This document shows, piece after piece, positions 1,915-18,293 of a stretch of 64,000 nt of DNA. This DNA is from Candidatus Thiodiazotropha sp. 'RUGA' (GTDB taxonomy: Bacteria; Pseudomonadota; Gammaproteobacteria; Chromatiales; Chromatiaceae). The translations under genes and the position numbers were made by a program. Under the pieces are notes generated by a model that did no database searches, had not been told where the DNA came from, and saw only the letters and a list, made by a program, of their open reading frames with translations. Numbering within the stretch: position 1 is the first letter of the stretch; each line of letters starts with the position of its first letter. The DNA lies in the NCBI GenBank assembly GCA_016842065.1, contig JAEPDS010000011.1:1-64000 (forward strand), read 5' to 3'.

Positions 1915-4900
1915 ATGCCCGGGCACTTAATACGTTGGTCGATCGAGAACCGCGTACTGGTGTTACTCGCCAGTCTGATCACCGCCATCTGGGGTTGGAA
2001 CTCACTGCGTGAGACGCCCCTCGATGCCCTTCCCGATCTGTCGGATGTGCAGGTCATCATACAGACCAGTTACCCGGGCCAGGCACCACAGGTAGTTGAA
2101 GACCAGGTCACTTACCCGATCACCACGACCATGTTGTCGGTACCCGGCGCAAAGGCGGTGCGTGGCTACTCTTTCTTTGGCGACTCCTACATCTATGTGG
2201 TCTTTGAAGACGGTACCGACATCTATTGGGCCCGCAGCCGAGTGCTCGAATATCTCAATCAGGCCAGTTCCGATCTGCCCAGCGATGTACAACCGAAGCT
2301 GGGACCGGATGCTTCGGGAGTGGGCTGGATCTACAGCTATGCCCTGGTCGACCGGCACAACAGACACGATCTCGCCCAGTTACGATCCTTGCAGGACTGG
2401 TTCCTGAAGTATGAGCTGCAGAGTGTCTCAGGGGTGGCCGAGGTTGCCAGTGTAGGCGGCATGGTGCGCCAGTATCAGATCGTACTCAGCCCGGAGAAAT
2501 TACGCGCACTGGGCATTCCCATTTCACAGGCCATCGAGGCGGTAAAGCAGGCGAATTACGAAGTGGGCGGCTCGGTCATCGAGCAGGGCGAAGCGGAGTT
2601 GATGGTGCGTACCCGCGGCTACCTTAAATCGGTGCAGGATATACGCCATATCCCCATCGCCATTACCGAAGAGAGTATTCCAATCCTGCTGCAGGATATC
2701 GCCACCATTCAGATCGGTCCGGAGATGCGGCGGGTTGTCGCCGACCTGGACGGTTTGGGAGAGGTCACCGGCGGCATCATCGTGATGCGCCATGGTGAGA
2801 ATGCCCTGGCGACGATCGAGCGGGTGAAAAAGAAACTGCAACAACTCAAGAGCGGGCTGCCTGACGGTGTCGAGATCATCGAGACCTACGACCGCTCGAC
2901 ACTGATCAACGAAAGCGTCGACAACCTGAGCAATAAACTGGTTGAAGAGTTTATCGTGGTCGCGCTGATCTGCCTGTTGTTCCTGTTTCACTTTCGCTCA
3001 GCCGTGGTGGCTGTAGTCACCCTCCCGATGGGGATTCTGATTGCCTTCATCATCATGAGGCAGCAGGGTATCAACGCCAACATCATGTCGCTTGGCGGTA
3101 TCGCCATTGCGATCGGCACCATGGTGGATGCCGCCATCGTGATGATTGAAAATGCACACCGCCAACTGCAGGAGCGTGGCGGCGGGCTCTCCCGGGAAGA
3201 ACACTGGAAGGTGATCCTGCAGGCCTCGTTGCAAGTCGGACCGGCACTCTTCTACTCGCTGCTGATCATTACCCTGAGCTTTTTGCCTGTGCTGGCCCTG
3301 GAGGGACAGGAGGGGCGTCTGTTCGGCCCGCTGGTCTACACCAAAACCTATGCCATGGCCGCGGCAGCCGGCCTGGCGGTCACACTGGTACCGGTATTGA
3401 TGGGTTATCTGTTGAAGGGATGGATTCCTGCTGAGAGCAGCAATCCATTGAGCTGGGCGCTGATCACCCTCTATCGGCCACTGCTCAGGGTCGTTTTGTG
3501 GCTACCCAGCCCCTCCTTGCTGGTGGCACTGTTGCTTATGCTCACCCTGGTGATTCCGATCTATGGCATCGGTGGCCTGCTTGAGCCCGTTAAGTGGCCG
3601 CTGCAACTGAGCAGGGCGGCAGGCCTGGAGAGCAGCAATACATTGATCGATACCATCGAAGAGAGCCAGCAGAGCATGCAGAAGCGCTGGCGCAACCTCT
3701 TTTCCGATTCACCCGGCATGCAGCGACTGGGGCAAGGACTGGGTTCCGAGTTCATGCCCGATCTGTTCGAGGGCGATCTGATGTATATGCCCACCACCCT
3801 GCCGGGACTATCCATCGGCAAGGCGCAGGAGCTGCTGCAACAGACCGATCGTCTGATCATGCAGGTCGCTGAGGTGGAACGGGTGTTCGGCAAGATCGGT
3901 CGGGCAGACAGTGCTACGGACCCTGCCCCCCTGACCATGATCGAGACCATCATCCGACTCAAACCCCGAGATGAATGGCGCGACGGGATCACCCTTGAGG
4001 ACATCATTGCCGAGCTGGACAGAACGGTAAGTTTCCCCGGCCTCACCAACGCCTGGCTGATGCCGATCAAAACCAGAATCGATATGCTCTCGACGGGCAT
4101 CAAGACGCCCATCGGCATCAAGGTCTCCGGACCGGATCTGAAGACCATTGAGAAGATCGGCCGGGAGATCGAGCAGCAGCTCTCCACCCTGCCGGAGACC
4201 CGCTCCGCTTTCTCCGACCGGGTTGTGGCAGGACGCTATATCGAGATCGTACCGGACCGTCTTGAAGCCGCCCGTCTTGGCATCAACATCGACGATATCA
4301 ACCTGATGGTGAGTGCCGCGGTTGGTGGTATCAACATCAGTGAGACCGTGGAGGGTCTGGAGCGCTATCCGATCAACGTCCGCTTCCCACGGGAACTTCG
4401 CGATGACATCAAGAAGCTGAGTGAACTCCCCATCATCACACCTTCGGGAGCACAGGTGCCCCTCTCACAGGTGGCCAAAGTGCATGTGGTGGATGGACCG
4501 CCTTTGATCAAAACCGAAAACGCCCGCCTCAACGGCTGGACTTTCATCGATATCAAGGATGCGGATCTGGGTGGCTACATCAGCAAAGGTGAACAACTGC
4601 TTCAAGAGAAGACCCAGCTTCCTGCGGGATACGCCATCACCTGGACAGGTCAGTATGAGTATATGCTGCGGGCTGAAGCCAAATTGAAGCAACTGGTACC
4701 GATGTTGCTGATTATTATTTTCGCCCTGCTCTATCTGATCTTCAGGCGCTATTCCGATGTACTGGTGGTGATGTTGAGCATCCCCTTTGCTCTGGTGGGA
4801 GGCTTCTGGTTTGTACTGTTGATGGGTTATAACCTGTCGGTCGCGGTAGCCGTTGGCTTCATTGCCCTGGCCGGTATTGCCACTGAGTTCGGGGTCGTCA

Positions 4901-5211
4901 TGCTGATCTACATCAACAGCGCCATCAAGCGCTATCAGGAAGCCGGCCGGTTGACCGACCGGCAGCAGCTCAAGGCGGCCATCATCGAAGGCGCGGCACT
5001 CAGAGTGCGCCCCAAAGCCATGACGGTACTGGTGGTTGTGATCGGCCTGATGCCGATCATGCTCAGCGACGGCGCCGGTTCGGAAGTGATGCAGCGTATT
5101 GCTGCGCCAGTCATCGGAGGTATGCTGACAGCCCCATTGCTGTCACTGTTTGTGATCCCGGCACTGGTGCTGCTGATCAGAAGAAAATCCCTGCCCGGCA
5201 GACACGAGTGA
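1915..5211 (+). CDS. cusA: CusA/CzcA family heavy-metal efflux RND transporter, inner-membrane pump
   Basis: 1098 aa; DALPDLSDVQVIIQTSYPGQAPQVVEDQVTYPITTTMLSVPGAKAVRGYSFFGDSYIYVVFEDGTDIYWARSRVLEYL is diagnostic of CusA/CzcA. Confidence 0.95.
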   Translation: MPGHLIRWSIENRVLVLLASLITAIWGWNSLRETPLDALPDLSDVQVIIQTSYPGQAPQVVEDQVTYPITTTMLSVPGAKAVRGYSFFGDSYIYVVFEDGTDIYWARSRVLEYLNQASSDLPSDVQPKLGPDASGVGWIYSYALVDRHNRHDLAQLRSLQDWFLKYELQSVSGVAEVASVGGMVRQYQIVLSPEKLRALGIPISQAIEAVKQANYEVGGSVIEQGEAELMVRTRGYLKSVQDIRHIPIAITEESIPILLQDIATIQIGPEMRRVVADLDGLGEVTGGIIVMRHGENALATIERVKKKLQQLKSGLPDGVEIIETYDRSTLINESVDNLSNKLVEEFIVVALICLLFLFHFRSAVVAVVTLPMGILIAFIIMRQQGINANIMSLGGIAIAIGTMVDAAIVMIENAHRQLQERGGGLSREEHWKVILQASLQVGPALFYSLLIITLSFLPVLALEGQEGRLFGPLVYTKTYAMAAAAGLAVTLVPVLMGYLLKGWIPAESSNPLSWALITLYRPLLRVVLWLPSPSLLVALLLMLTLVIPIYGIGGLLEPVKWPLQLSRAAGLESSNTLIDTIEESQQSMQKRWRNLFSDSPGMQRLGQGLGSEFMPDLFEGDLMYMPTTLPGLSIGKAQELLQQTDRLIMQVAEVERVFGKIGRADSATDPAPLTMIETIIRLKPRDEWRDGITLEDIIAELDRTVSFPGLTNAWLMPIKTRIDMLSTGIKTPIGIKVSGPDLKTIEKIGREIEQQLSTLPETRSAFSDRVVAGRYIEIVPDRLEAARLGINIDDINLMVSAAVGGINISETVEGLERYPINVRFPRELRDDIKKLSELPIITPSGAQVPLSQVAKVHVVDGPPLIKTENARLNGWTFIDIKDADLGGYISKGEQLLQEKTQLPAGYAITWTGQYEYMLRAEAKLKQLVPMLLIIIFALLYLIFRRYSDVLVVMLSIPFALVGGFWFVLLMGYNLSVAVAVGFIALAGIATEFGVVMLIYINSAIKRYQEAGRLTDRQQLKAAIIEGAALRVRPKAMTVLVVVIGLMPIMLSDGAGSEVMQRIAAPVIGGMLTAPLLSLFVIPALVLLIRRKSLPGRHE

Positions 5212-5223
5212 CGGGCCAGGCAA

Positions 5224-5685
5224 TCAACCGGCCAGTGGCCTCTGCAGATTCATGCTATGGCTGATATATTCCAGATTGCGTTGGAATGCCAACACCTCAG
5301 GGTGGCAGGCATGTGATACCAGCAAGGTGGAGAAGATCTCCGGATAGATGCTTTGATTGTCGCTACTCTCTCCAGAGAGATGAAGCATCAGTTCGGTCTC
5401 GACTTCATCGATGATGTCTCGAAAGCCAGGGTCGATACGCACGATTTTGCTGGCGCCCAGCAGACAGTAAGCTGTTGCCCATACCACCGGTGTGATGACC
5501 TGGCGCTGGACCTCGGACGATGGCTGGCCATACTTTTTCGAGACCATGGTGATATGCCGATGGATTGCGGCGAGCAGTTTCTTCAAATCAACGGGATCCA
5601 GATCCAACAGGCTCAGACCATATTGGGCGAGCTCGACCTTTAACTGCTTCCGTTCCTGACTTTTCTCGAAGAGATAATTCAACAT
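5224..5685 (-). CDS. hypothetical protein
   Basis: 153-aa ORF convergent with cusA; no family recognised. Confidence 0.6.
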   Translation of the reverse strand: MLNYLFEKSQERKQLKVELAQYGLSLLDLDPVDLKKLLAAIHRHITMVSKKYGQPSSEVQRQVITPVVWATAYCLLGASKIVRIDPGFRDIIDEVETELMLHLSGESSDNQSIYPEIFSTLLVSHACHPEVLAFQRNLEYISHSMNLQRPLAG

Positions 5686-6501
5686 ATTTCGATACCTGTC
5701 CTTAAGTTTATTATTCGGGGTTCAGGTAAAAAAACGGCGGTTAGCGCACTCCCACTCAGGGATCAACGATCAGACCACCATCACCAACTGGTTACTGACA
5801 AACTCCAAAAAACAAAAAAATGCTCTGTTTACTGCTAAAGCAGAGTCCATTCCTATAAAATCATTTAAATCCTAGCGGTACTTCCTTAAAACAATATTAA
5901 AATTGTGTAATTAAGTCACAGATTTAAAATCTCCACAGTTCAACAATTGCTTAACAACAGATTAATTCATTATTAATCTGTAACTTAACTGATCTCCATG
6001 CTCGTGATGGCGAATGAGTTTTAACAAACTCCAAGCGACTGATGCCTGGCATTTACCCTAAAGCGCTGCAATTTTTGTCAAACGAAAGGATTAGTCCCTG
6101 CATGAAGGCCCAAGGAGCCGGACCGCACCGGTATGACGAGGAGCAGCCTCATCAGTCAGCTTATCCATTCGCGAGAATTTGCGGTGACTGGCGTCCATTC
6201 GTGGCCATAAATATCCAGGCCTTCCGCACAGACTTGCGCTGGTAAATCGGACCAACCGCCAATTCCTGATAATAATTATGGTTTATGCGGCTGGAGGAGA
6301 TTGCTAATCTTGTATTGGCGAAAATAGAAGATAACGATAAGGAACCCTGAGAAAGCCCCCTTGCCTGGTCTGATTCTGCCGATTCACTGAATGCTCAGTG
6401 ACTGGGGATCACTTGAAAGACCGATCGGCGGCAAGATAAGAGCGTTGAGGTTCCAAACCGGAACACCAATCCGGTGACACCACATAACCTGGAGGAAATC
6501 C

Positions 6502-6822
6502 GTGCTTAACCTACTGAAGTGCAAATGCCTGTTTGGCTTTTTATGGACCAGTGCAATCGCAGCCGCTGTGCTGACATTCATCTTTTTCTCATTCATCGAT
6601 CCGGCTGCCATTGCGGCGGTCATGAATCTGGCGGAAGAGACTGAGACCAGTAGCTTCAATATCTATCTCGGCGTTTTTGTCTTTTTCTGGTTTACCCTCA
6701 ACACCTCAACCTATCTGGCATTCTATTTCGGGCAACTGCTGAGCAAGATGGAGAAGGAAGCGTCAGAGATGGAGCAACGTAAAGAGTCTCATGATGGCGA
6801 GACCGGTATACACACGAGTTGA
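6502..6822 (+). CDS. hypothetical small membrane protein (two TM segments)
   Basis: Hydrophobic segments FGFLWTSAIAAAVLTFIFFSFI and IYLGVFVFFWFTLNTSTYLAFYFGQLL. Confidence 0.6.
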   Translation: MLNLLKCKCLFGFLWTSAIAAAVLTFIFFSFIDPAAIAAVMNLAEETETSSFNIYLGVFVFFWFTLNTSTYLAFYFGQLLSKMEKEASEMEQRKESHDGETGIHTS

Positions 6823-6931
6823 TCGATATTAACCCGCAGAGATAAGCACTGTTTCCCATGGCAGACCCACAAAGTCTGTCAGGGAACGCTTTATCGCGGG
6901 TTAAGCCGTGCAGTCGATTCTGCCAATCGAC

Positions 6932-7453
6932 CTATTCGGGAATGTTCGGCGGATCCAGATCCTCCACCGGCAGCTCATCCTGAAGATTGCTCTGCCACTC
7001 CTTCAGCATGGCCACATGCCAGCCCTCCTCTTCTGCCATCTCGGCGGCCAGCTTGCGCACATCCTCACTGGGCGAGTGCTCGGATATCAGCAGATAGAAC
7101 TCCCGCCCGCGAATCTCATTGTAGAGGGCGACCTCCATCGCCTGGGTAACCGTCATCATGTAGTTTGCCTCCTCCATGCAGAAGGCTTCCGGTGACGAGG
7201 GGCAGCGCCACTTGAAATCCCAGGGTGTCAACTGGGGCAGTTCCAGCCCTTGAGTGCGCTCCATCACCTCTTTGGCATGCTGGCGACTGTAACCCGCCAG
7301 TTTGCGAAACAGCTCTGCCACCTGCAGATTGTTATGGATCTCCATACTGTCCGCCAGTTCGTCATAGTGGTCACTGGAGGCCTCTTCCAGTTCCAGGGCG
7401 TGCACCAGGAACTCTTCGATACTGGTTATCGGGTCGACGAGATCATCACTCAT
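6932..7453 (-). CDS. ferritin-like/rubrerythrin-type di-iron domain protein
   Basis: Start set at MSDDLVDP (ATG 7453) overlapping the korB stop (ATGA); helical E..H pattern ELEEASSDHYDEL...EIRGREFYLLISEHSPSEDVRKLAAEMAEEEGWHV. Confidence 0.75.
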   Translation of the reverse strand: MSDDLVDPITSIEEFLVHALELEEASSDHYDELADSMEIHNNLQVAELFRKLAGYSRQHAKEVMERTQGLELPQLTPWDFKWRCPSSPEAFCMEEANYMMTVTQAMEVALYNEIRGREFYLLISEHSPSEDVRKLAAEMAEEEGWHVAMLKEWQSNLQDELPVEDLDPPNIPE

Positions 7454-8277
7454 AGACAAAACTCCTCCTCCAATTCCGCCACTTCGCAGCTTTTTATATT
7501 CTCGGGCTGCCACACCGGTATCGGTGTGGCGTAGATGACCCCGGTAGCGAGCCCATCATCCGCCTGGATGATCTGAGCGGCCTTGATCCGGTCCTCGGTC
7601 GGCACATCGTTGATGAACGGGTGTACTGTCTCCTTCCACGCCTTCTGGTCCGGACGAAAGGTGACACAGCCACTCAACACCTGGATAAAGGCAAATCCAG
7701 GATACTCGATCGCTTCCACCAGCACCTTGGTCAGATCCGATGGTTTGCCGGCAAAAGCCCTGGCGATAAAACCGGCGCCCGCAGCCAAGGCGATGGCGGC
7801 AGGATTGAAGCTGGGTATGCCGGTGCCATGGGGGGTCAGTTTACTCTTATCCCAGTTCGGTTTGGTGGTGGGCGAAGCCTGACCCTTGGTCATACCGTAG
7901 ACCTCATTGTCCATCACGATGTAGGTCATATCCATATTGCGTCGGCAGGCGTGCAGAAAATGGTTGCCGCCAATCGAGAACCCATCCCCGTCACCACCGG
8001 CCACCACCACCGTCAGGTCGGGGCGTGCCGCCTTCAGTCCGGATGCCGCTGCCAGCGCCCGACCGTGGATACCATGAAAACCATAGCTGTCGATATAGGC
8101 CGGCAAGCGGGATGAACAGCCGATACCCGAGACCACCGCCACACGCTCTTTGACCAGCCCGAGGTGGGCCATCGCCTTGGTCAATGAAGCAAGCACCGAA
8201 AAGTGACCGCAACCCGGGCACCAGACCGGCTTGATATCCGATTTATAGTCTTTTGCCTTCAGCGAAGGTACCGGCAT
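7450..8277 (-). CDS. korB: 2-oxoacid:ferredoxin oxidoreductase subunit beta
   Basis: WCPGCGHFSVLASL, GIGCSSRLPAYIDSYGFHGIHGRALAAASGLKAARPDLTVVVAGGDGDGFSIGGNH (TPP-binding) typical of KorB/PorB. Confidence 0.93.
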   Translation of the reverse strand: MPVPSLKAKDYKSDIKPVWCPGCGHFSVLASLTKAMAHLGLVKERVAVVSGIGCSSRLPAYIDSYGFHGIHGRALAAASGLKAARPDLTVVVAGGDGDGFSIGGNHFLHACRRNMDMTYIVMDNEVYGMTKGQASPTTKPNWDKSKLTPHGTGIPSFNPAAIALAAGAGFIARAFAGKPSDLTKVLVEAIEYPGFAFIQVLSGCVTFRPDQKAWKETVHPFINDVPTEDRIKAAQIIQADDGLATGVIYATPIPVWQPENIKSCEVAELEEEFCL

Positions 8278-8830
8278 GTTCCCCTCCAGCGATTCAACCC
8301 CGGGAAAATAAACCCCTTAACGATTAAAAGCATATACCAATATCGCCAGGACCCACATGTCGAAAATCAACCGCTTTCGACAATCTTGCTCTGCAAACGC
8401 CTGGTGCATAGGGGTTATCCCTGATATCCAGCTCGTTGGCGAATGGCATAATGGGGCCAGGAGCACGTCAGATGACCCTTATGTCATCTGCAGTTTTATA
8501 TGGAAATTCAGCATACTGTATTTATCAAGGATGGATAGCATACATGGCGTGTAGATTGAATCCCGTTCACCATACCTCCGCTCAGCAGAGCACCGGGTAT
8601 CGCCATTGGATGTCGGCAAACCCTTCGGCCCGGTCCATCCTGCGTGCAGGCTCATCGCTAATCCTGCTACCCGATCAGACGACTGCTGACAGGGATGAGT
8701 ATCTGTCTGCTCTGCCCCCTTTATCCGCCGTCTTCCAACCAGGGCAGTTTGACCCTCGAAGCCTGAACAGCGTCGCTACAACAGATCAGCCCACAGACAC
8801 CAGCATCCAAACCACTCAGCGAGGTAACCA

Positions 8831-9475
8831 TTGAACACACTCAACACATCCGAGAGCAATCCCGGCGAAGCCAAAGGCAACTACTCCCAGGCAGCCTATC
8901 GGGATCATGAAAGCCTATTCAATGAACTGACGGAACAGGAGATCCAAAGCGCTGTGCGCAAAAAGTCATCCACGGCAACCAAACTGGCAAGAAACGCACC
9001 GCAACAGCATCGTGGGGAGATGGAAAAGCTGTTCAAACTCTCGCTGTTCATTCACCAGCGTTTTGAAGAGATCCATAAGCTGCCGCAAAAGGATATCCAC
9101 GGCGCGATCACCATCTTTCTCTATGGCATCTGGTCGATCTACAACCAGGGCGCCACCATCCCCGGCAAGCAGTTCGACAAACTGGTCAAACAGACCCGGG
9201 ATACCATGCGTGAAAGAGCCGAGTTTCTCAAAGCGTATGAGAAATCGACCAGCGGCAACCGCTCAGCCCTCTATGAGACCTTCGCCATGGTCGGTAACTG
9301 GTTGCTGATGATTCAACACCACCTCACCTCACAACCGGACGAGACCGCATTGAACAATGTCAAAATCATGGTCAGAGAGATCATCACCCGCAGCCTGAAG
9401 ATTGAACCCGAGTCGATCTCCATCAGCCAGGAAGGCGATCTGATCATCACCGAGCAGAACCGCACAACCCAGTAA
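8831..9475 (+). CDS. hypothetical protein, paralogue A (no signal peptide)
   Basis: 214 aa; shares FLYGIWS.YN.GA.IP, MEK.F...LF, and C-terminal ISQEG.L with the next ORF. Confidence 0.75.
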   Translation: MNTLNTSESNPGEAKGNYSQAAYRDHESLFNELTEQEIQSAVRKKSSTATKLARNAPQQHRGEMEKLFKLSLFIHQRFEEIHKLPQKDIHGAITIFLYGIWSIYNQGATIPGKQFDKLVKQTRDTMRERAEFLKAYEKSTSGNRSALYETFAMVGNWLLMIQHHLTSQPDETALNNVKIMVREIITRSLKIEPESISISQEGDLIITEQNRTTQ

Positions 9476-9487
9476 AGGATTAACAAG

Positions 9488-10237
9488 ATGAACATCAGGC
9501 TACAGCTCTCCCGTCTGTTACTGGGGGGATTTCTCTCCACCTGTTCCACCATGATCAACAGTGCGCCGGCTGACAACACTGCGGCAACACCAGGCTTCCT
9601 GGTGGATGGCTTCGATCAGCTGTTTGAGCAACCAGTAAAGGCCCCAACCATCGGCAGCCTTCAAAGCAGTGGGGATGCGGGCAAACGTTTCGTTGAGGAA
9701 CTGAGCACCATCACGCCCCAGGACATCCAGGCCGCCTCAAACAACAGATCCGCAACGGCCACCCAGTTGGCCGGCAACTTCCCGGAAGCCAACCGGGCCA
9801 ATATGGAGAAGATATTCAACATCGCCCTGTTCGTTCAAAAGAGGATAGAACAGGCGGCAAGGGTACCTGAAGGTGACATTCCAACCGCTACAGCCTCATT
9901 TCTCTATGGCATCTGGTCCGCCTACAACGAAGGAGCCGAGATACCGGAGCAGAATCTGCTGCACCTGCACAAGCAGGTGGCGCAACTCATTGCGAGCAAT
10001 CAACCCCTGAGTGAGGGCCTGCAGAACGCCAACCAGACCGATCGACAGAAACTCTACGAATACCTTGCCATGACCGGCAATTGGATGGTGATGTTCCAGG
10101 ACACCTTCAAGAAAGGCCCGGACCAGAAAATGGTGACAAACATCAAAAACATGGCAAGAGAACTACTACAGGCCAGTTTCAAGATCGACGTGGAGAAGCT
10201 TCATATCAGTCAGGAGGGGCAGCTGTCGATGTTGTAG
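9488..10237 (+). CDS. hypothetical exported protein, paralogue B (N-terminal signal peptide)
   Basis: 249 aa; N-terminal MNIRLQLSRLLLGGFLSTCSTMINSAPA looks like a secretion signal; homologous over its length to 8831..9475. Confidence 0.75.
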   Translation: MNIRLQLSRLLLGGFLSTCSTMINSAPADNTAATPGFLVDGFDQLFEQPVKAPTIGSLQSSGDAGKRFVEELSTITPQDIQAASNNRSATATQLAGNFPEANRANMEKIFNIALFVQKRIEQAARVPEGDIPTATASFLYGIWSAYNEGAEIPEQNLLHLHKQVAQLIASNQPLSEGLQNANQTDRQKLYEYLAMTGNWMVMFQDTFKKGPDQKMVTNIKNMARELLQASFKIDVEKLHISQEGQLSML

Positions 10238-10859
10238 CCACCTCACCCCTTTGGGTGGGGCCATGCCCCACCCAGAGTAAATCGATTCCGTACCCAAACT
10301 GACGTGATTCCTTTTAGCAAAAAGAAAGCCTGCCATAAACTAAAGTGAATTTATTTCACTGATTTCCTGCCCATCCAACCTCAACCATTATTCTAATCAC
10401 TGTTTTTTTTGCTACCTTTTCAATAACTTATAATAACACTGTTGATAGTAGACTCTAACCTATGATGAGACCCCAGCTCCACCAGGCGAGTGGTATATGT
10501 TGAGAATCAAAACGAAATGCTCTAAAAAGGAAGTCACAACTATTATGACCTAATCACAGGGATGCTTCTCATTATGGAAATTGAGAACTCGATTGACCCA
10601 ACAGATGTTTCTACTTGCAGTAATCAAAATACAGCTGCAGTAACACACTGCAGAATAATTACCCCTTTAGGATTCTTACACTTAATCCACCTGTTGCTTA
10701 CTGGCCCGACTTTTAAGTTCCCAATAAAGTCCCGTCGAGACATACGCCTTATCTGCAGGTTTATGAGAACTTTATGCATGATATTCCAATATCAGCGCGA
10801 GCAATATATTCCAATATCGGCGACAGTAAGATAATCAGCTGTTATGTGCAAGGAGAATC

Positions 10860-11180
10860 ATGAGCTGTGATCAATGCTTAAGACTAATATCAGGAACTCC
10901 AATAAAATTACCGACTGATCTTAAACGGGCTATAAAGAAGGCAGATGAGGCAGTAAAAAAGGGAGTTCTAAAGTATGAGGGTGCAGGCCAATTAGGTGAG
11001 CCATTCGAGGAATTAGCACGAGGTAGTCACTGGGGGGATGTAGTTGATAACTATTTTTCATGCACATCATGTGGCCAAAAGTTTAACCTTTATGCAGAAA
11101 CTTATCACGGAGCTGGTGGAGCATTTGAGAAAATCGCTTGTATCAAGGAAACGCTACAGGGTGATACATATGGCACATAA
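10860..11180 (+). CDS. hypothetical cassette protein with paired CxxC zinc-ribbon-like motifs
   Basis: MSCDQCLRL...CTSCGQKF; stop codon overlaps attC-like site. Confidence 0.7.
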   Translation: MSCDQCLRLISGTPIKLPTDLKRAIKKADEAVKKGVLKYEGAGQLGEPFEELARGSHWGDVVDNYFSCTSCGQKFNLYAETYHGAGGAFEKIACIKETLQGDTYGT

Positions 11181-11240
11181 CCAGACGCTCCAGCCGACGT
11201 CGGCGTTACCACGCCTCCTCGGCTGAGCTTGGTCGTTAGC
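11176..11240 (+). repeat. attC-like recombination site 1
   Basis: CATAAC...CGTTAGC boundaries enclosing imperfect inverted repeat (CAGCCGACG...CTCGGCTGAGC). Confidence 0.75.
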
Positions 11241-11261
11241 TCTAAAGGTGCCATTGGAAAA

Positions 11262-11855
11262 ATGACTGCACAAGCATCTGATATTTTCATTTATAAAGAT
11301 GACCACTTCAATTTAGTGGCTTATTCCAATGGAGAGCCATTTGATCCAACAAGCTATGGATATAGTCCTGTTATGGCAAGCACTGCATGTTGGAGAGGCT
11401 ATCTTTGTGAATACAAAATAGAAAATGGAGAACTTTTACTAGATAAACTATATATCAACCATCAAGAATCAGATTTACCTGTGTTACAAAAAAAGCAGCC
11501 TCCAAATTTGAATGGTTCAGTGGCTTCTGTAACAAAAAATAAAAGTTTTATTGGCAGATGGTTATTCGAGGATATTAATATGCCTTTAGCGTACACCGGT
11601 GGCTTGGTCGTCGCTCAAGGCTTTATTAGGTCGTTGTATGTCCATATGGGTTTTCATCCCGCATGGAAGTATGAAGAAGTACATGAGCTAGTTTTTGAGT
11701 CAGGGCATCTGATATCGGAATCCGACTTAAGCAGCAGGATGGTTGACGTCAGAAAGAAAGCCGAAGGTGACACAATGCAAATAAACGGAACACCATCAAA
11801 AAAAGAGATTGAGGTATGGATAGCCGAGTGTTTTCGTAGGGATTACAAGAGATGA
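11262..11855 (+). CDS. hypothetical cassette protein
   Basis: ATG 11262 (MTAQASDIFIYKDDHF); low-GC ORF flanked by attC-like sites 1 and 2. Confidence 0.7.
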   Translation: MTAQASDIFIYKDDHFNLVAYSNGEPFDPTSYGYSPVMASTACWRGYLCEYKIENGELLLDKLYINHQESDLPVLQKKQPPNLNGSVASVTKNKSFIGRWLFEDINMPLAYTGGLVVAQGFIRSLYVHMGFHPAWKYEEVHELVFESGHLISESDLSSRMVDVRKKAEGDTMQINGTPSKKEIEVWIAECFRRDYKR

Positions 11856-11931
11856 GCTAACAAGCACATGCATAGGAAGTCAAAAGCGACGCTTCGCTAT
11901 GCTTTTGCCTCCTGTGATGTGAGCGTTATGC
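11856..11931 (+). repeat. attC-like recombination site 2
   Basis: GCTAACAAGC...GAGCGTTATGC with imperfect stem AGGAAGTCAAAAGC/GCTTTTGCCTCCT. Confidence 0.85.
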
Positions 11932-11943
11932 ACTTAAATACCA

Positions 11944-12351
11944 ATGAACTACGAAGAACTATCAGAAAAATACCAAGAAGCAATTAACATGAGCGATAGC
12001 AATAATGCTCATAAAATAATTACTTCTATAGTTAGAGAGGCAGCTTGTAATTTTCCACGGGATAATGAAGAGGCTTTATCCTGGTTTAAAAATGCGCTTA
12101 AGCATGAATCAAAAAAGTGGTTTGTGGCAAAAGTACTAACAAAAGTTAATCCGGTTCCGCAAGCTTTATTTGAGGATTTGGTTTTATCGGCACTTTTGGA
12201 GCGAAATCCAAGCTCTAATAGGTATCTGATAGAGCCTTGTGTAAAAACATTTGGAGTACAAGAAGTTTTGTCAAAAATGGAAGAGTTATCTTCACTACAG
12301 GAGATAGTTGACAATAATGGTTTCGAGCAAGTTAAGTACTGGGTTAGGTAA
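11944..12351 (+). CDS. hypothetical cassette protein
   Basis: 135-aa ORF between attC-like sites 2 and 3. Confidence 0.7.
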   Translation: MNYEELSEKYQEAINMSDSNNAHKIITSIVREAACNFPRDNEEALSWFKNALKHESKKWFVAKVLTKVNPVPQALFEDLVLSALLERNPSSNRYLIEPCVKTFGVQEVLSKMEELSSLQEIVDNNGFEQVKYWVR

Positions 12352-12355
12352 AATG

Positions 12356-12420
12356 CATAACCAGCAGCTTCAGCCGACGTCGGCGCTGTTGCGCCTCCTC
12401 GGCTGAGCTTGGGCGTTAGC
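12356..12420 (+). repeat. attC-like recombination site 3
   Basis: CATAACCAGCAGCTTCAGCCGACG...CTCGGCTGAGCTTGGGCGTTAGC; closely similar to site 1. Confidence 0.8.
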
Positions 12421-12440
12421 CAAAAATACAAGAGAAGGAA

Positions 12441-14015
12441 ATGCTTACACTTCAGGAAGGCAGCCTAAACTGGGCTTTAAATCACGCTCTAAATGTTGGG
12501 GATACTGATGTATTCCCAGCACCATTCGAGTATGAAGCCATTAGACATGACTGGGATGCAGTAAGGTCAGAATTAGCTGAAGTGAATGTACTAGAGTGGG
12601 CGACCCGCCCTGCAAGAGCTCTTTTATCTCCAAAAGCAAAATATGGTTTCAGGGTAATAACTCAACTTGATCCAATTGATTTCTTAATATATTCATCTTT
12701 GGTCTACGAAATTTCTGGTGACCTTGAAGCGCGGAGGCTACCTATTGCTGATGAGGTCGTGTTTTCTTATCGCGTTGACACAAACCAAGATGGGCAATTG
12801 TATTCCCCTGAAGTAGGCTACCGATCCTTCTTGAGTCGGTGTCGTGAAAAACTGCGTCAATATACAGATAACTGCTTCGTCGCCACTGCCGATATCTCTG
12901 ATTTTTACTCAAGAATTTATCACCATAGACTAGAAAACGCGTTACGTGCAGCCACGCCAAGAACCTCTCACGTAAACGCTATTATGGGTCTACTCTCCGG
13001 CTGGAACGGTACAGAGACATTTGGAATACCTGTAGGCTGCGCTGCATCTCGCGTGCTTGCGGAAATTACGCTTTCAGATGTTGATGAGGCGCTTCTGGCA
13101 AATGGTGTTGACTTTATTCGTTTTAATGACGATTACCGTATTTTTGCAACAAGCCAAGCTCAAGCATATCAACATGTTGCATTCTTGGCAGAGACGCTCT
13201 TCCGAAACCACGGTCTTTCGCTCCAGCCTCAAAAAACCTCTGTCCAGGATGCACCATCTTTTAGAGACCAGTATCTCGCAACTCCATTGGATAGAGAAAT
13301 GGACTCTCTTCATGAGAGATTTCAGGAGCTCATAGAAGAACTAGGTTTAGAGAGTTGGTACGAAGAGATAGATTATGATGATCTAACGGAAGAGCAACAG
13401 GAACTCGTAGACGCGCTTAATCTTGTTGAGCTATTCAGAGACGAAGCATCATCTGATGAGCCAGACATACCCGTCATACGATTCTGTTTGCGGCGACTCG
13501 GTCAATTAGGTGATGCCAGTGCAGTCGATGATGTATTCGAAAGCTTGGAGTCCATTACTCCCGCCTTTGTTGATGTAATTGAATATATCTCCAACCTGAG
13601 ATATCTGAATATTACTTCACGTTCCGAACTCGGAGGGCGTCTACTAGACCTATTGGATGATTCCATAGTTAGTGAGCTAGCTTATCATCGAATGTGGATA
13701 ATGAATCTGTTCACGTCTTCACGAGAATGGGACAACGAAAATAGGTTCGTAAACTTATATAACCGTGAAAATGACCAAGCATGTAAGAGAAAGCTGATAC
13801 TAGCTATGGGGCGCTCACAACAAACACATTGGTTTCAATCTCAATGGCGTACATTGTTTGAGCACCCACACTGGCAAAGGCGAGCCGTACTAGCCGCAGC
13901 GAGCTGCATGCCTGCAGATGCTCGTCGGCACTGGTACAGATCAGTTGAGCCTCAGCTTGATGTTTTGGAACGCGCAGTCATGCGGTGGGCAAGGAGTAAC
14001 CCATTCAGTGGCTAA
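12441..14015 (+). CDS. stand-alone reverse transcriptase (RNA-directed DNA polymerase), Abi/UG (DRT)-like, with alpha-helical C-terminal extension
   Basis: RT motif A FVATADISDFYSRIYHHRL, motif B GIPVGCAASRVLAEITLSDVD, motif C IRFNDDYRIF, followed by GLSLQPQKTSV; flanked by attC-like sites 3 and 4. Confidence 0.88.
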   Translation: MLTLQEGSLNWALNHALNVGDTDVFPAPFEYEAIRHDWDAVRSELAEVNVLEWATRPARALLSPKAKYGFRVITQLDPIDFLIYSSLVYEISGDLEARRLPIADEVVFSYRVDTNQDGQLYSPEVGYRSFLSRCREKLRQYTDNCFVATADISDFYSRIYHHRLENALRAATPRTSHVNAIMGLLSGWNGTETFGIPVGCAASRVLAEITLSDVDEALLANGVDFIRFNDDYRIFATSQAQAYQHVAFLAETLFRNHGLSLQPQKTSVQDAPSFRDQYLATPLDREMDSLHERFQELIEELGLESWYEEIDYDDLTEEQQELVDALNLVELFRDEASSDEPDIPVIRFCLRRLGQLGDASAVDDVFESLESITPAFVDVIEYISNLRYLNITSRSELGGRLLDLLDDSIVSELAYHRMWIMNLFTSSREWDNENRFVNLYNRENDQACKRKLILAMGRSQQTHWFQSQWRTLFEHPHWQRRAVLAAASCMPADARRHWYRSVEPQLDVLERAVMRWARSNPFSG

Positions 14016-14090
14016 CAATGCCGTAAACTCGGACGCATTTTTCGTTCGCTGCGCTCACTACAAATGCGCCGGTTACGGAGAGCGTTAGGC
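14011..14090 (+). repeat. attC-like recombination site 4
   Basis: GCTAACAATGCCGTAAACTCGGACGCATTTTT...AAATGCGCCGGTTACGGAGAGCGTTAGGC. Confidence 0.9.
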
Positions 14091-14097
14091 AATCACA

Positions 14098-14493
14098 ATG
14101 TGCGAGACCGATCTCAAAACCGAAGCGGGTAAGGCTCGTAGCGTATTTGACAAACATGCTACTGAAACTAGTGATCTATTTAAGGCGTTCCCTCGGGGAA
14201 GCTGCGGCAATGCTAGTTTGCTGCTGGGTAATTGGCTAACGCGTTGTGGATTCAAAAACATTCAGGTTGTATTGGCGAAAAAGGAAGAGGGGCCAAGTCA
14301 TTCTTGGCTGATCGTTGGTGGTTACATTGTCGATATCACTGCTGATCAATTTGAAGAACAAGGCTATGGCCTATATCCATTGAATAGCGAATACCATGCA
14401 GCATTCTCAGAACAAGAGGAAGGTTCATTGGATCTAGGAATTTCTCTCGAAGAACCATACGAAATATTTTCGAGATTCATGGAAGATGCCTAA
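14098..14493 (+). CDS. cassette protein, possible Cys/His/Asp transglutaminase-/papain-like fold
   Basis: GSCGNASLLLGNWL ... SHSWLIVGGYIVDITADQF spacing resembles a C-H-D triad. Confidence 0.65.
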   Translation: MCETDLKTEAGKARSVFDKHATETSDLFKAFPRGSCGNASLLLGNWLTRCGFKNIQVVLAKKEEGPSHSWLIVGGYIVDITADQFEEQGYGLYPLNSEYHAAFSEQEEGSLDLGISLEEPYEIFSRFMEDA

Positions 14494-14551
14494 CCAGTCG
14501 CACCAAAGGGACGCTCGTTTCACTCGCGCCCCTGTGCTCAAACGTTATAAC
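14488..14551 (+). repeat. attC-like recombination site 5
   Basis: GCCTAACCAGTCGCACCAAAGGGACGCTCGTTTCACTCGCGCCCCTGTGCTCAAACGTTATAAC. Confidence 0.85.
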
Positions 14552-14557
14552 TAAGAA

Positions 14558-14938
14558 ATGGACTCAGAAACTCAATTCACATTCTCTGGCAGAATAAGAA
14601 GCATAGGTCACGCAATTGAGGGCATCAAAATTGTACTCTTTACACAACACAATGCATGGGTTCATTTGGCAGCCACATTGTCAGTAGTTGTTGCTGGAAT
14701 TTACTTTTCAATAACTCCAAATGAGTGGGTTTGGTTGGTAGTTGCAATAGTAATAGTCTGGGTCTCAGAGGCACTGAATACAGCTTTTGAATTGCTATGT
14801 GATGTAGCATCACCAGAGTTTCATCCTATAGTTAAAAAGAGCAAAGATGTGGCAGCGGGAGCTGTGCTAATAAGTGCAATTGGTTCAATAGTTATAGGGA
14901 GTATCGTCTTTTTGCCTTACGTATTGAATGGCGTATGA
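14558..14938 (+). CDS. diacylglycerol kinase (DgkA)-family integral membrane protein, cassette-borne
   Basis: AIEGIKIVLFTQHNAWVHLAATL, WLVVAIVIVWVSEALNTAFELLCD and KKSKDVAAGAVLISAI match the DgkA signature region (E-x-x-N-T-A-x-E, KD.AAGAV). Confidence 0.88.
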   Translation: MDSETQFTFSGRIRSIGHAIEGIKIVLFTQHNAWVHLAATLSVVVAGIYFSITPNEWVWLVVAIVIVWVSEALNTAFELLCDVASPEFHPIVKKSKDVAAGAVLISAIGSIVIGSIVFLPYVLNGV

Positions 14939-14948
14939 TCAATAAAAG

Positions 14949-15062
14949 TTATAACAAGTGCGTCAACACGGAAAGCCCACTTCGCGGCCATTTTTGTGGC
15001 GTCGTTTCACTGTGCCACAAAACTGTCCACTCCGTGGCCTTCCGGTTACGCGGGCGTTAGAG
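14949..15062 (+). repeat. attC-like recombination site 6
   Basis: TTATAACAAGTGCGTCAACACGGAAAGCCC...GGCCTTCCGGTTACGCGGGCGTTAG. Confidence 0.88.
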
Positions 15063-15070
15063 CCACACAA

Positions 15071-15493
15071 ATGGATATAAAGAAAATCAAATCTCTGAGT
15101 ATTTTTAGAATATATATACTGTTTGCTGTAATTGGCATTATAAATTTCGGCATTTCTATTCTAAATGCGTCATCAGAAATGCAATCACTTTTTAGTATCT
15201 TTGCCATTGCGACGGCAGCATTTCTTATTCTGGGTGGCATACTGGCGTGGCTTGCCCAATCTGGAGCTAAATGGGCAATAATTACTTTCGGTATGTATTG
15301 CGTTTATCGTATAGGCGATTATTTTTTGGGCTATCTCTATCGAGAAGCATTGCCTCAATCCTTTATTGGTTGGGGCCAAGCTATTTTTGTTGTATTTAGT
15401 TGGATGTTTTTGCTCTGGTTAACAGTGGCAAAGGGGTCTAACAAGCGGCGCAACACGGACTCCAGCGATGACGCGCCTTCGCCGGCTCGCTGA
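15071..15493 (+). CDS. hypothetical membrane cassette protein (C-terminus encoded by attC)
   Basis: Start set to ATG 15071 (MDIKKIKSLSIFRIY) because the longer ORF begins inside attC 6; hydrophobic TM segments. Confidence 0.65.
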   Translation: MDIKKIKSLSIFRIYILFAVIGIINFGISILNASSEMQSLFSIFAIATAAFLILGGILAWLAQSGAKWAIITFGMYCVYRIGDYFLGYLYREALPQSFIGWGQAIFVVFSWMFLLWLTVAKGSNKRRNTDSSDDAPSPAR

Positions 15494-15502
15494 ATGTTAG
15501 GC
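15436..15502 (+). repeat. attC-like recombination site 7 (overlaps the 3' end of the preceding CDS)
   Basis: GTCTAACAAGCGGCGCAACACGGACTCCAGCG...CGCCTTCGCCGGCTCGCTGAATGTTAGGC. Confidence 0.8.
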
Positions 15503-15991: not shown

Positions 15992-16069
15992 GCCTAACAA
16001 GATAATCGACATCATTCGCACCTCACTTGGAAGTTCACTTTGTCCACGCCAGTTATTACAACGTTATGT
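15992..16069 (+). repeat. attC-like recombination site 8
   Basis: GCCTAACAAGATAATCGACATC...CAACGTTATGTT. Confidence 0.65.
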
Positions 16070-17795: not shown

Positions 17796-18293
17796 ATGAG
17801 CATATTACCAGTTAATGAACAAGTAACGATTCTGGTCGATGCTCAGAATGTCTACTACACGACGAAACAGGCTTACGGTTGTGGCTTTGATTATAACGGG
17901 TTCTGGAAAATGGCCACGAGTAATAGAAAGGTTGTTCGAGCCATCGCCTACTCGTGCGAGCGAGGTGATTCTAAGCAACGTCAGTTTCAAAACATCCTCA
18001 GGGCAATTGGATTTGAAGTGAAGTTGAAGCCGTATATTCAGCGGTCTGACGGTTCTTCGAAGTGCGACTGGGACGTAGGAATAACAATTGATGCCCTTGA
18101 GTCCGCACGAGATTCGAATTTGGTGGTTTTGGTTAGTGGGGATGGCGATTTCGATTTGCTGGTGAAAAAGTTAGAAAACGATTTAGGCTTGAAAACAGAG
18201 GTTTACGGTGTTCCCGGGCTAACAGCGACCTCGTTAATCGAAGCCACATCGAAATATGTGCCAATAGAAAATGGCTTACTCATGAGAAAATAG
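17796..18293 (+). CDS. NYN/LabA-type PIN-like ribonuclease domain protein, cassette-borne
   Basis: VTILVDAQNVYYTTKQ ... KCDWDVGITIDALESARDSNLVVLVSGDGDFDLLVKKL matches the NYN acidic motif pattern. Confidence 0.85.
   Translation: MSILPVNEQVTILVDAQNVYYTTKQAYGCGFDYNGFWKMATSNRKVVRAIAYSCERGDSKQRQFQNILRAIGFEVKLKPYIQRSDGSSKCDWDVGITIDALESARDSNLVVLVSGDGDFDLLVKKLENDLGLKTEVYGVPGLTATSLIEATSKYVPIENGLLMRK

Follow-up and report, generated by a model that had tools for sequence, protein, structure and literature searches.

A DRT8-family reverse transcriptase carried as a one-gene integron cassette

Recent reviews name DRT8 among the antiphage families of reverse transcriptases (RTs), and as of mid-2026 it belongs to a small group of defence RTs for which they describe the mechanism as unresolved (PMC13213688, PMC13314766). 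UG RTs of Class 1 have helical repeats of the HEAT-like type, and those examined to date synthesize DNA without a template; Class 2 DRTs require a non-coding RNA (ncRNA) (PMC13174585). DRT4 makes random, template-free ssDNA that is primed from a tyrosine and stabilised by a phage protein (PMC13314766). For DRT8 itself, a Cap17-type SLOG/PNP protein is tabulated alongside the RT in one review (PMC10952713). Integron cassettes that encode defence genes are established in Vibrio, as two papers state with reference to Darracq 2025, Getz 2025 and Kieffer 2025 (PMC12444791, PMC12409362).

Here, we describe an RT gene from a genome assigned to Candidatus Thiodiazotropha sp. 'RUGA'. It lies in a stretch of 64,000 nucleotides (contig JAEPDS010000011.1, positions 1 to 64,000), which we call the window and to which coordinates refer unless a locus is named. 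As in the integron defence cassettes outlined in PMC12444791 and PMC12409362, the chromosomal integron here holds an antiphage-type gene with attC sites on either side. We consider it probable, with considerable room for doubt, that this DRT8 cassette RT is a one-gene abortive-infection enzyme that works free of ncRNA and makes untemplated DNA. Its role in phage defence is suggested by what is reported of the DRT8 family.

The RT gene occupies positions 12441 to 14015 of the + strand and is uninterrupted, encoding 524 aa; it was assigned by the PADLOC Drt8 profile, Pfam RVT_1, an AlphaFold model and a tree. The RVT_1 match (E 5e-14) spans residues 132-269. Motif A, ATADISDFYSRIYHH, bears D151, motif B reads GIPVGCAASRVLAEITLSDVD, and the FNDD box comprises residues 228-231 (nt 13122-13133), with GLSLQPQKTSV also present. 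The original prediction, which was made from the DNA alone, had described this same ORF with these motifs, and every one of them is in place. The catalytic aspartates D151 of motif A and D230-D231 of the FNDD box (12891 to 13133, + strand) are invariant in 22/22 DRT8 sequences, and the catalytic triad is thus intact. FNDD is common to the window RT and its Thiodiazotropha and Pseudomonadales relatives, whereas most DRT8 proteins have YxDD. The RT core takes up about residues 1-280 and a helical domain about residues 281-524. Both halves are under strong purifying selection (pN 0.12-0.19, with pS near saturation), as is the window RT when compared with its 80% relative (pN 0.13 against a saturated pS of 0.80).

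As a mobile unit, the RT cassette extends from 12416 to 14084 (+ strand), between the G/TT crossover points of attC3 and attC4, and 94% of its 1669 bp from crossover to crossover are coding. Its left border is attC3 (12355 to 12421, + strand; GCATAAC...GTTAGCC, scan score 42.2, bottom-strand fold z -4.1) and its right border attC4 (14010 to 14090, + strand; GGCTAAC...GTTAGGC, scan score 44.6, z -1.9). For both sites, the single bottom strand adopts the hairpin typical of attC, unpaired extra bases included. The RT start codon follows the end of attC3 by 19 nt and the stop codon is overlapped by the left core of attC4, which leaves 19 nt in the cassette before the ORF and none after it. Since attC lengths were too variable for a covariance model, that model was abandoned in favour of a core-plus-hairpin scan, in which the two RT flanks score 37.2 and 38.6; among 1500 random 180-nt stretches, 0.5% reach 35 and 0.07% reach 38. 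The scan overlooks attC sites with poor arms, as at locus L038 and at the upstream sites of L073, L074 and L076, and these were read by eye.

The array is headed by an attI at 10760 to 10859 (+ strand; crossover core GTTATGT at 10841-10847), which was recognized by its similarity to the attI beside an intact intI on another contig of this genome, C2 (84% identity over 104 columns, E 9e-25). Cassette 1 ends in attC1 (11175 to 11241, + strand; scan score 40.0, bottom-strand fold z -3.7) and cassette 2 in attC2 (11855 to 11931, + strand; AGCTAAC...GTTATGC, whose inverted arms were read from the sequence), and, counting from attI, the RT cassette comes fourth. Beyond it, attC5 (14488-14550), attC6 (14949-15062; scan score 43.2), attC7 (15436-15502; scan score 38.7) and attC8 (15992-16069) were read from the sequence, all on the + strand. 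Flanked by attC3 and attC4 behind this attI, the RT cassette is the self-contained unit it had been proposed to be, and the proposal that a separate ncRNA would not fit into it agrees with the borders. No promoter excess was found near it.

For an integron to count as complete it needs a functional integrase in cis; arrays that lack one are also known. The window array has no intact integrase; what is left is an intI remnant with an in-frame stop (10496 to 10606, - strand), located in a tblastn search whose query was the intact IntI from contig C2; it matches this protein over 37 aa at 51% identity (E 2e-9) and, within positions 10552-10600, the C2 gene over 49 bp at 92% identity. Because attI has been kept and intI survives only as this remnant, the window array is a second copy of this genome's integron in which the integrase has decayed, and it could be shuffled only in trans. 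On contig C2 (L084, 7716-9572), a group II intron (Rfam RF02005, E 1e-29, with a 462-aa RT) lies directly after an attC of the integron that has the intact intI, placed like IIC-attC introns. The DRT8 cassette and this intron thus put two unrelated RTs on the integrons of the same genome.

By its sequence, the cassette RT is clearly a member of DRT8, which we take to be UG7 in the Mestre 2022 numbering. The PADLOC Drt8 profile (PDLC03783) matches residues 4-520 of 524 with 536 bits (E 2e-161), and the second-best family, UG21, reaches 163 bits; Drt8 is also the top profile in 10/10 relatives tested. A maximum-likelihood tree was built from 32 RTs (LG+C20), 22 of them DRT8; these 22 sequences, the window RT included, form one clade with support 98/98, separate from the DRT4/DRT6/AbiP2 clade (97/95), DRT5, UG13, UG19 and group II RTs. 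The original prediction of a stand-alone UG/Abi/DRT-type RT, lying outside the group II clade, is thereby upheld. The accompanying suggestion of a possibly new UG-type lineage has to be dropped, since Drt8 is the best-matching profile and the RT lies within the DRT8 clade. With DRT8 the window RT has in common the full-length profile match, the clade and the conserved residues; compared with typical members, it is integron-borne, has FNDD rather than YxDD and is without a partner gene.

The closest relatives come from Thiodiazotropha (80% identity; locus L037 of genome G503, with L060 inside L037, from the same genus as the window genome), an uncultured member of the Pseudomonadales (78%) and a member of the Pyrinomonadaceae of the Acidobacteriota (60%). 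Two scans of viral contigs and a search of phage proteins returned no relatives, and a plasmid search returned only distant ones, below 60% identity.

The AlphaFold2 model, which was built from a 12-row alignment (pLDDT 87.8, pTM 0.87), consists of an RT fold and a half, at about residues 271-518, that is all-helical, as had been expected of the C-terminus. In a Foldseek search of the PDB, the top solved structures are DRT6 (9wy8, E 3e-12, TM 0.60) and DRT4 (9vdo, TM 0.61), and next among the top matches come UG15 (9l9s) and Abi-P2 (7r08), all of them polymerases that act as single proteins and make DNA independently of a template; DRT9, which binds an ncRNA, and the group II RTs rank lower. 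UG15/DRT4 chains are likewise among the top matches of a sequence search against the PDB. Like the window RT, DRT4/UG15 and DRT6 are single-protein RTs with a helical C-terminal domain (TM about 0.6), but they are only about 14% identical to it and form their own supported clade. AbiK, Abi-P2 and AbiA resemble it in combining, in a single gene without ncRNA, an RT fold with C-terminal helical repeats, and their structural match is weaker. AbiK primes from an N-terminal tyrosine, Tyr44; no counterpart of this residue was identified in the window RT. The node that unites DRT8 with the DRT4/DRT6/Abi clade has support of only 80/78 and takes in DRT5, and with so loose a join it is the fold that points to Class 1 behaviour.

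Group IIC introns settle in integrons, and with a group II intron in this genome's second integron we considered whether the window RT might be a group II intron, retron or DGR enzyme that lies in the array by chance. The probability we give to this is negligible. The Drt8 profile outscores the general RT profile by more than 460 bits, the tree splits the window RT from group II RTs at 100/100, no intron RNA was matched in window positions 5000-35000, and a long helical C-terminal half takes the place of thumb and maturase domains; together these observations refute it.

Homologues flanked by attC had been proposed as a test of the cassette reading, and homologues do often turn out to be cassettes. 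Besides the window's, seven distinct DRT8 genes, in seven genomes once paired loci are merged, are flanked by att sites, down to about 25% identity, and six of them (L010, L037, L038, L073, L074 and L076) have att bounds like the window's. At L037 the RT is the first cassette, with an attI-like site directly before it and an attC at 11570-11669 after it, and at L038, in the Pseudomonadales genome, a GTTAGCT core read by eye lies about 20 nt before the start and an attC after the gene. In the latter genome, a stretch of DNA is repeated upstream of the cassette (8051-8104 and 9226-9279), inside duplicated genes. The L010/L077 gene is about 25% identical to the window RT and has attC sites at -17 and -5. 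Three further genes from the same family as the window genome (L073, L074 and L076; 28-31% identity) have an attC at or just after the stop codon; on the upstream side, their att cores lie about 17-30 nt from the start. Genome G550 (L065/L083) has a gene that is 80% identical over the first 92 residues, with an attC 18 nt upstream. This DRT8 cassette is broken after about residue 92 by the transposase gene of an insertion sequence (L083, about 5103-6500).

No attC was found beside the RT at L008, L039, L041, L043, L045, L047, L075, L078, L079 or L080. L080 is sister to the L010 cassette and yet has no attC beside its RT, and at least five changes of cassette state are needed on the tree. Of six genomes in the window's family that match the Drt8 profile, five have a cassette copy (the exception being L075). 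As the set of loci is small and was partly found by homology to the window cassette, the overall share of cassettes is biased upward. A seventh genome of the family, G550, is the one with the cut-off cassette. Both integron defence stores and the DRT8 family are already known; repeated carriage of DRT8 by integrons was not met in the literature searched. Nor did that search, whose scope did not extend to the primary integron-defence papers, find any report of a DRT or other UG RT as an integron cassette. The idea of the integron as a store of defence genes is here extended to RTs and, if the assignment to Thiodiazotropha holds, to symbionts of marine clams.

The company that these cassettes keep bears on whether the RT serves phage defence at all. 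Its function is read from its family, integrons hold many cassettes unrelated to defence, and the window's neighbours include a diacylglycerol kinase and an NYN protein, so that a cassette for stabilisation of the array by toxicity, for repair or for stress survival has to be weighed. Against this, DRT8 is reported to be antiphage (PMC13213688, PMC13314766), the homologous cassettes of L077 and L074 adjoin other defence-like genes, and PMC12444791 and PMC12409362 treat integron defence cassettes as established in Vibrio; we therefore regard a role outside defence as distinctly improbable. At L077, DRT8 is followed immediately by a cassette for a PD-Lambda-3_A homologue (E 3e-51) and further on by one for a PDC-S15 homologue (E 8e-101), and it is preceded by an OLD/GajA-like ATPase; at L074, an NsnB-like ATPase gene (E 9e-49) lies just upstream. 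The L077 array as a whole (4261-13259, genome G288) is rich in defence-like cassettes. No strong defence match was found among the window's own neighbouring cassettes, which gave only an NYN match and a weak effector match. These neighbours include the diacylglycerol kinase cassette (14558-14938, Pfam DAGK_prokar, E 1e-30) and that of the NYN-domain protein (17796-18293, Pfam NYN, E 9e-36).

Whether the RT works alone is the second question on which the cassette bears. The enzyme could instead depend on a second component, either one encoded at another place in the genome or a host RNA; the DRT8 system would then be a two-gene or RNA-dependent one, of which the cassette moves the enzyme only. 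The Cap17-type protein listed with DRT8 (PMC10952713), which has no equivalent here, means that some DRT8 systems may have two genes, and Class 2 DRTs need their ncRNA (PMC13174585). At L039, the closest non-cassette DRT8, the adjoining downstream gene (11600-12598) weakly matches a nucleoside deoxyribosyltransferase, also has an 8xMP membrane domain and is possibly an effector. We nevertheless judge such a divided system unlikely. No partner protein is encoded in the window cassette, no neighbour recurs beside the non-cassette DRT8 genes, and the cassettes of several lineages contain little or nothing besides the DRT8 ORF. In ncRNA-templated Class 2 DRTs a conserved ncRNA adjoins the RT, and the window RT is without one: Rfam searches of 30 kb of the window and of six relatives gave no RNA tied to the RT. 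Synonymous change is not suppressed in the gene (observed/expected identical codons among relatives 1.03), and no 25-codon stretch of synonymous constraint stands out (p 0.38). Given the lack of both an Rfam match and synonymous constraint, a conserved ncRNA hidden in the RT gene seems unlikely.

The ends of an integron cassette mark the exact limits of what selection moves, in this case the RT gene and almost nothing else. As cassettes with the RT gene and little besides occur in several lineages, the proposition that DRT8 needs neither partner nor ncRNA can be tested on a 1.7-kb fragment, and an immune enzyme that is still unexplained is available in a naturally minimal, mobile, one-gene form.

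In the one-gene mechanism that we favour, the RT would need neither a partner nor an ncRNA of its own, as with DRT4/DRT6 and the Abi polymerases, and its helical C-terminal domain would provide an oligomerisation surface. DNA synthesis would start without a nucleic-acid template, the primer probably being one of the RT's own hydroxyl residues. A phage factor or an altered dNTP pool would then cause the DNA product to build up, and phage multiplication would be stopped. The best candidate primer, proposed from its conservation and loop position, is Tyr307 (codon 13359 to 13361, + strand), which lies in a loop modelled with low confidence between the RT core and the helical domain (pLDDT block 66) and is a tyrosine in 18 of the 21 DRT8 sequences aligned; conservation along this stretch is poor and the alignment loose. 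We also considered that the polymerase might act on folded single-stranded attC DNA or attC transcripts, or that these might prime or trigger it, so that immunity would be coupled to recombination. The repeated physical association of DRT8 with integrons is all that speaks for this coupling, which we consider very improbable.

The family also includes an enlarged variant. In genome G116 (L009, 556-3039), an 827-aa protein combines a DRT8 RT with a probable transmembrane segment and a C-terminal domain that has a weak DUF3108-like match.
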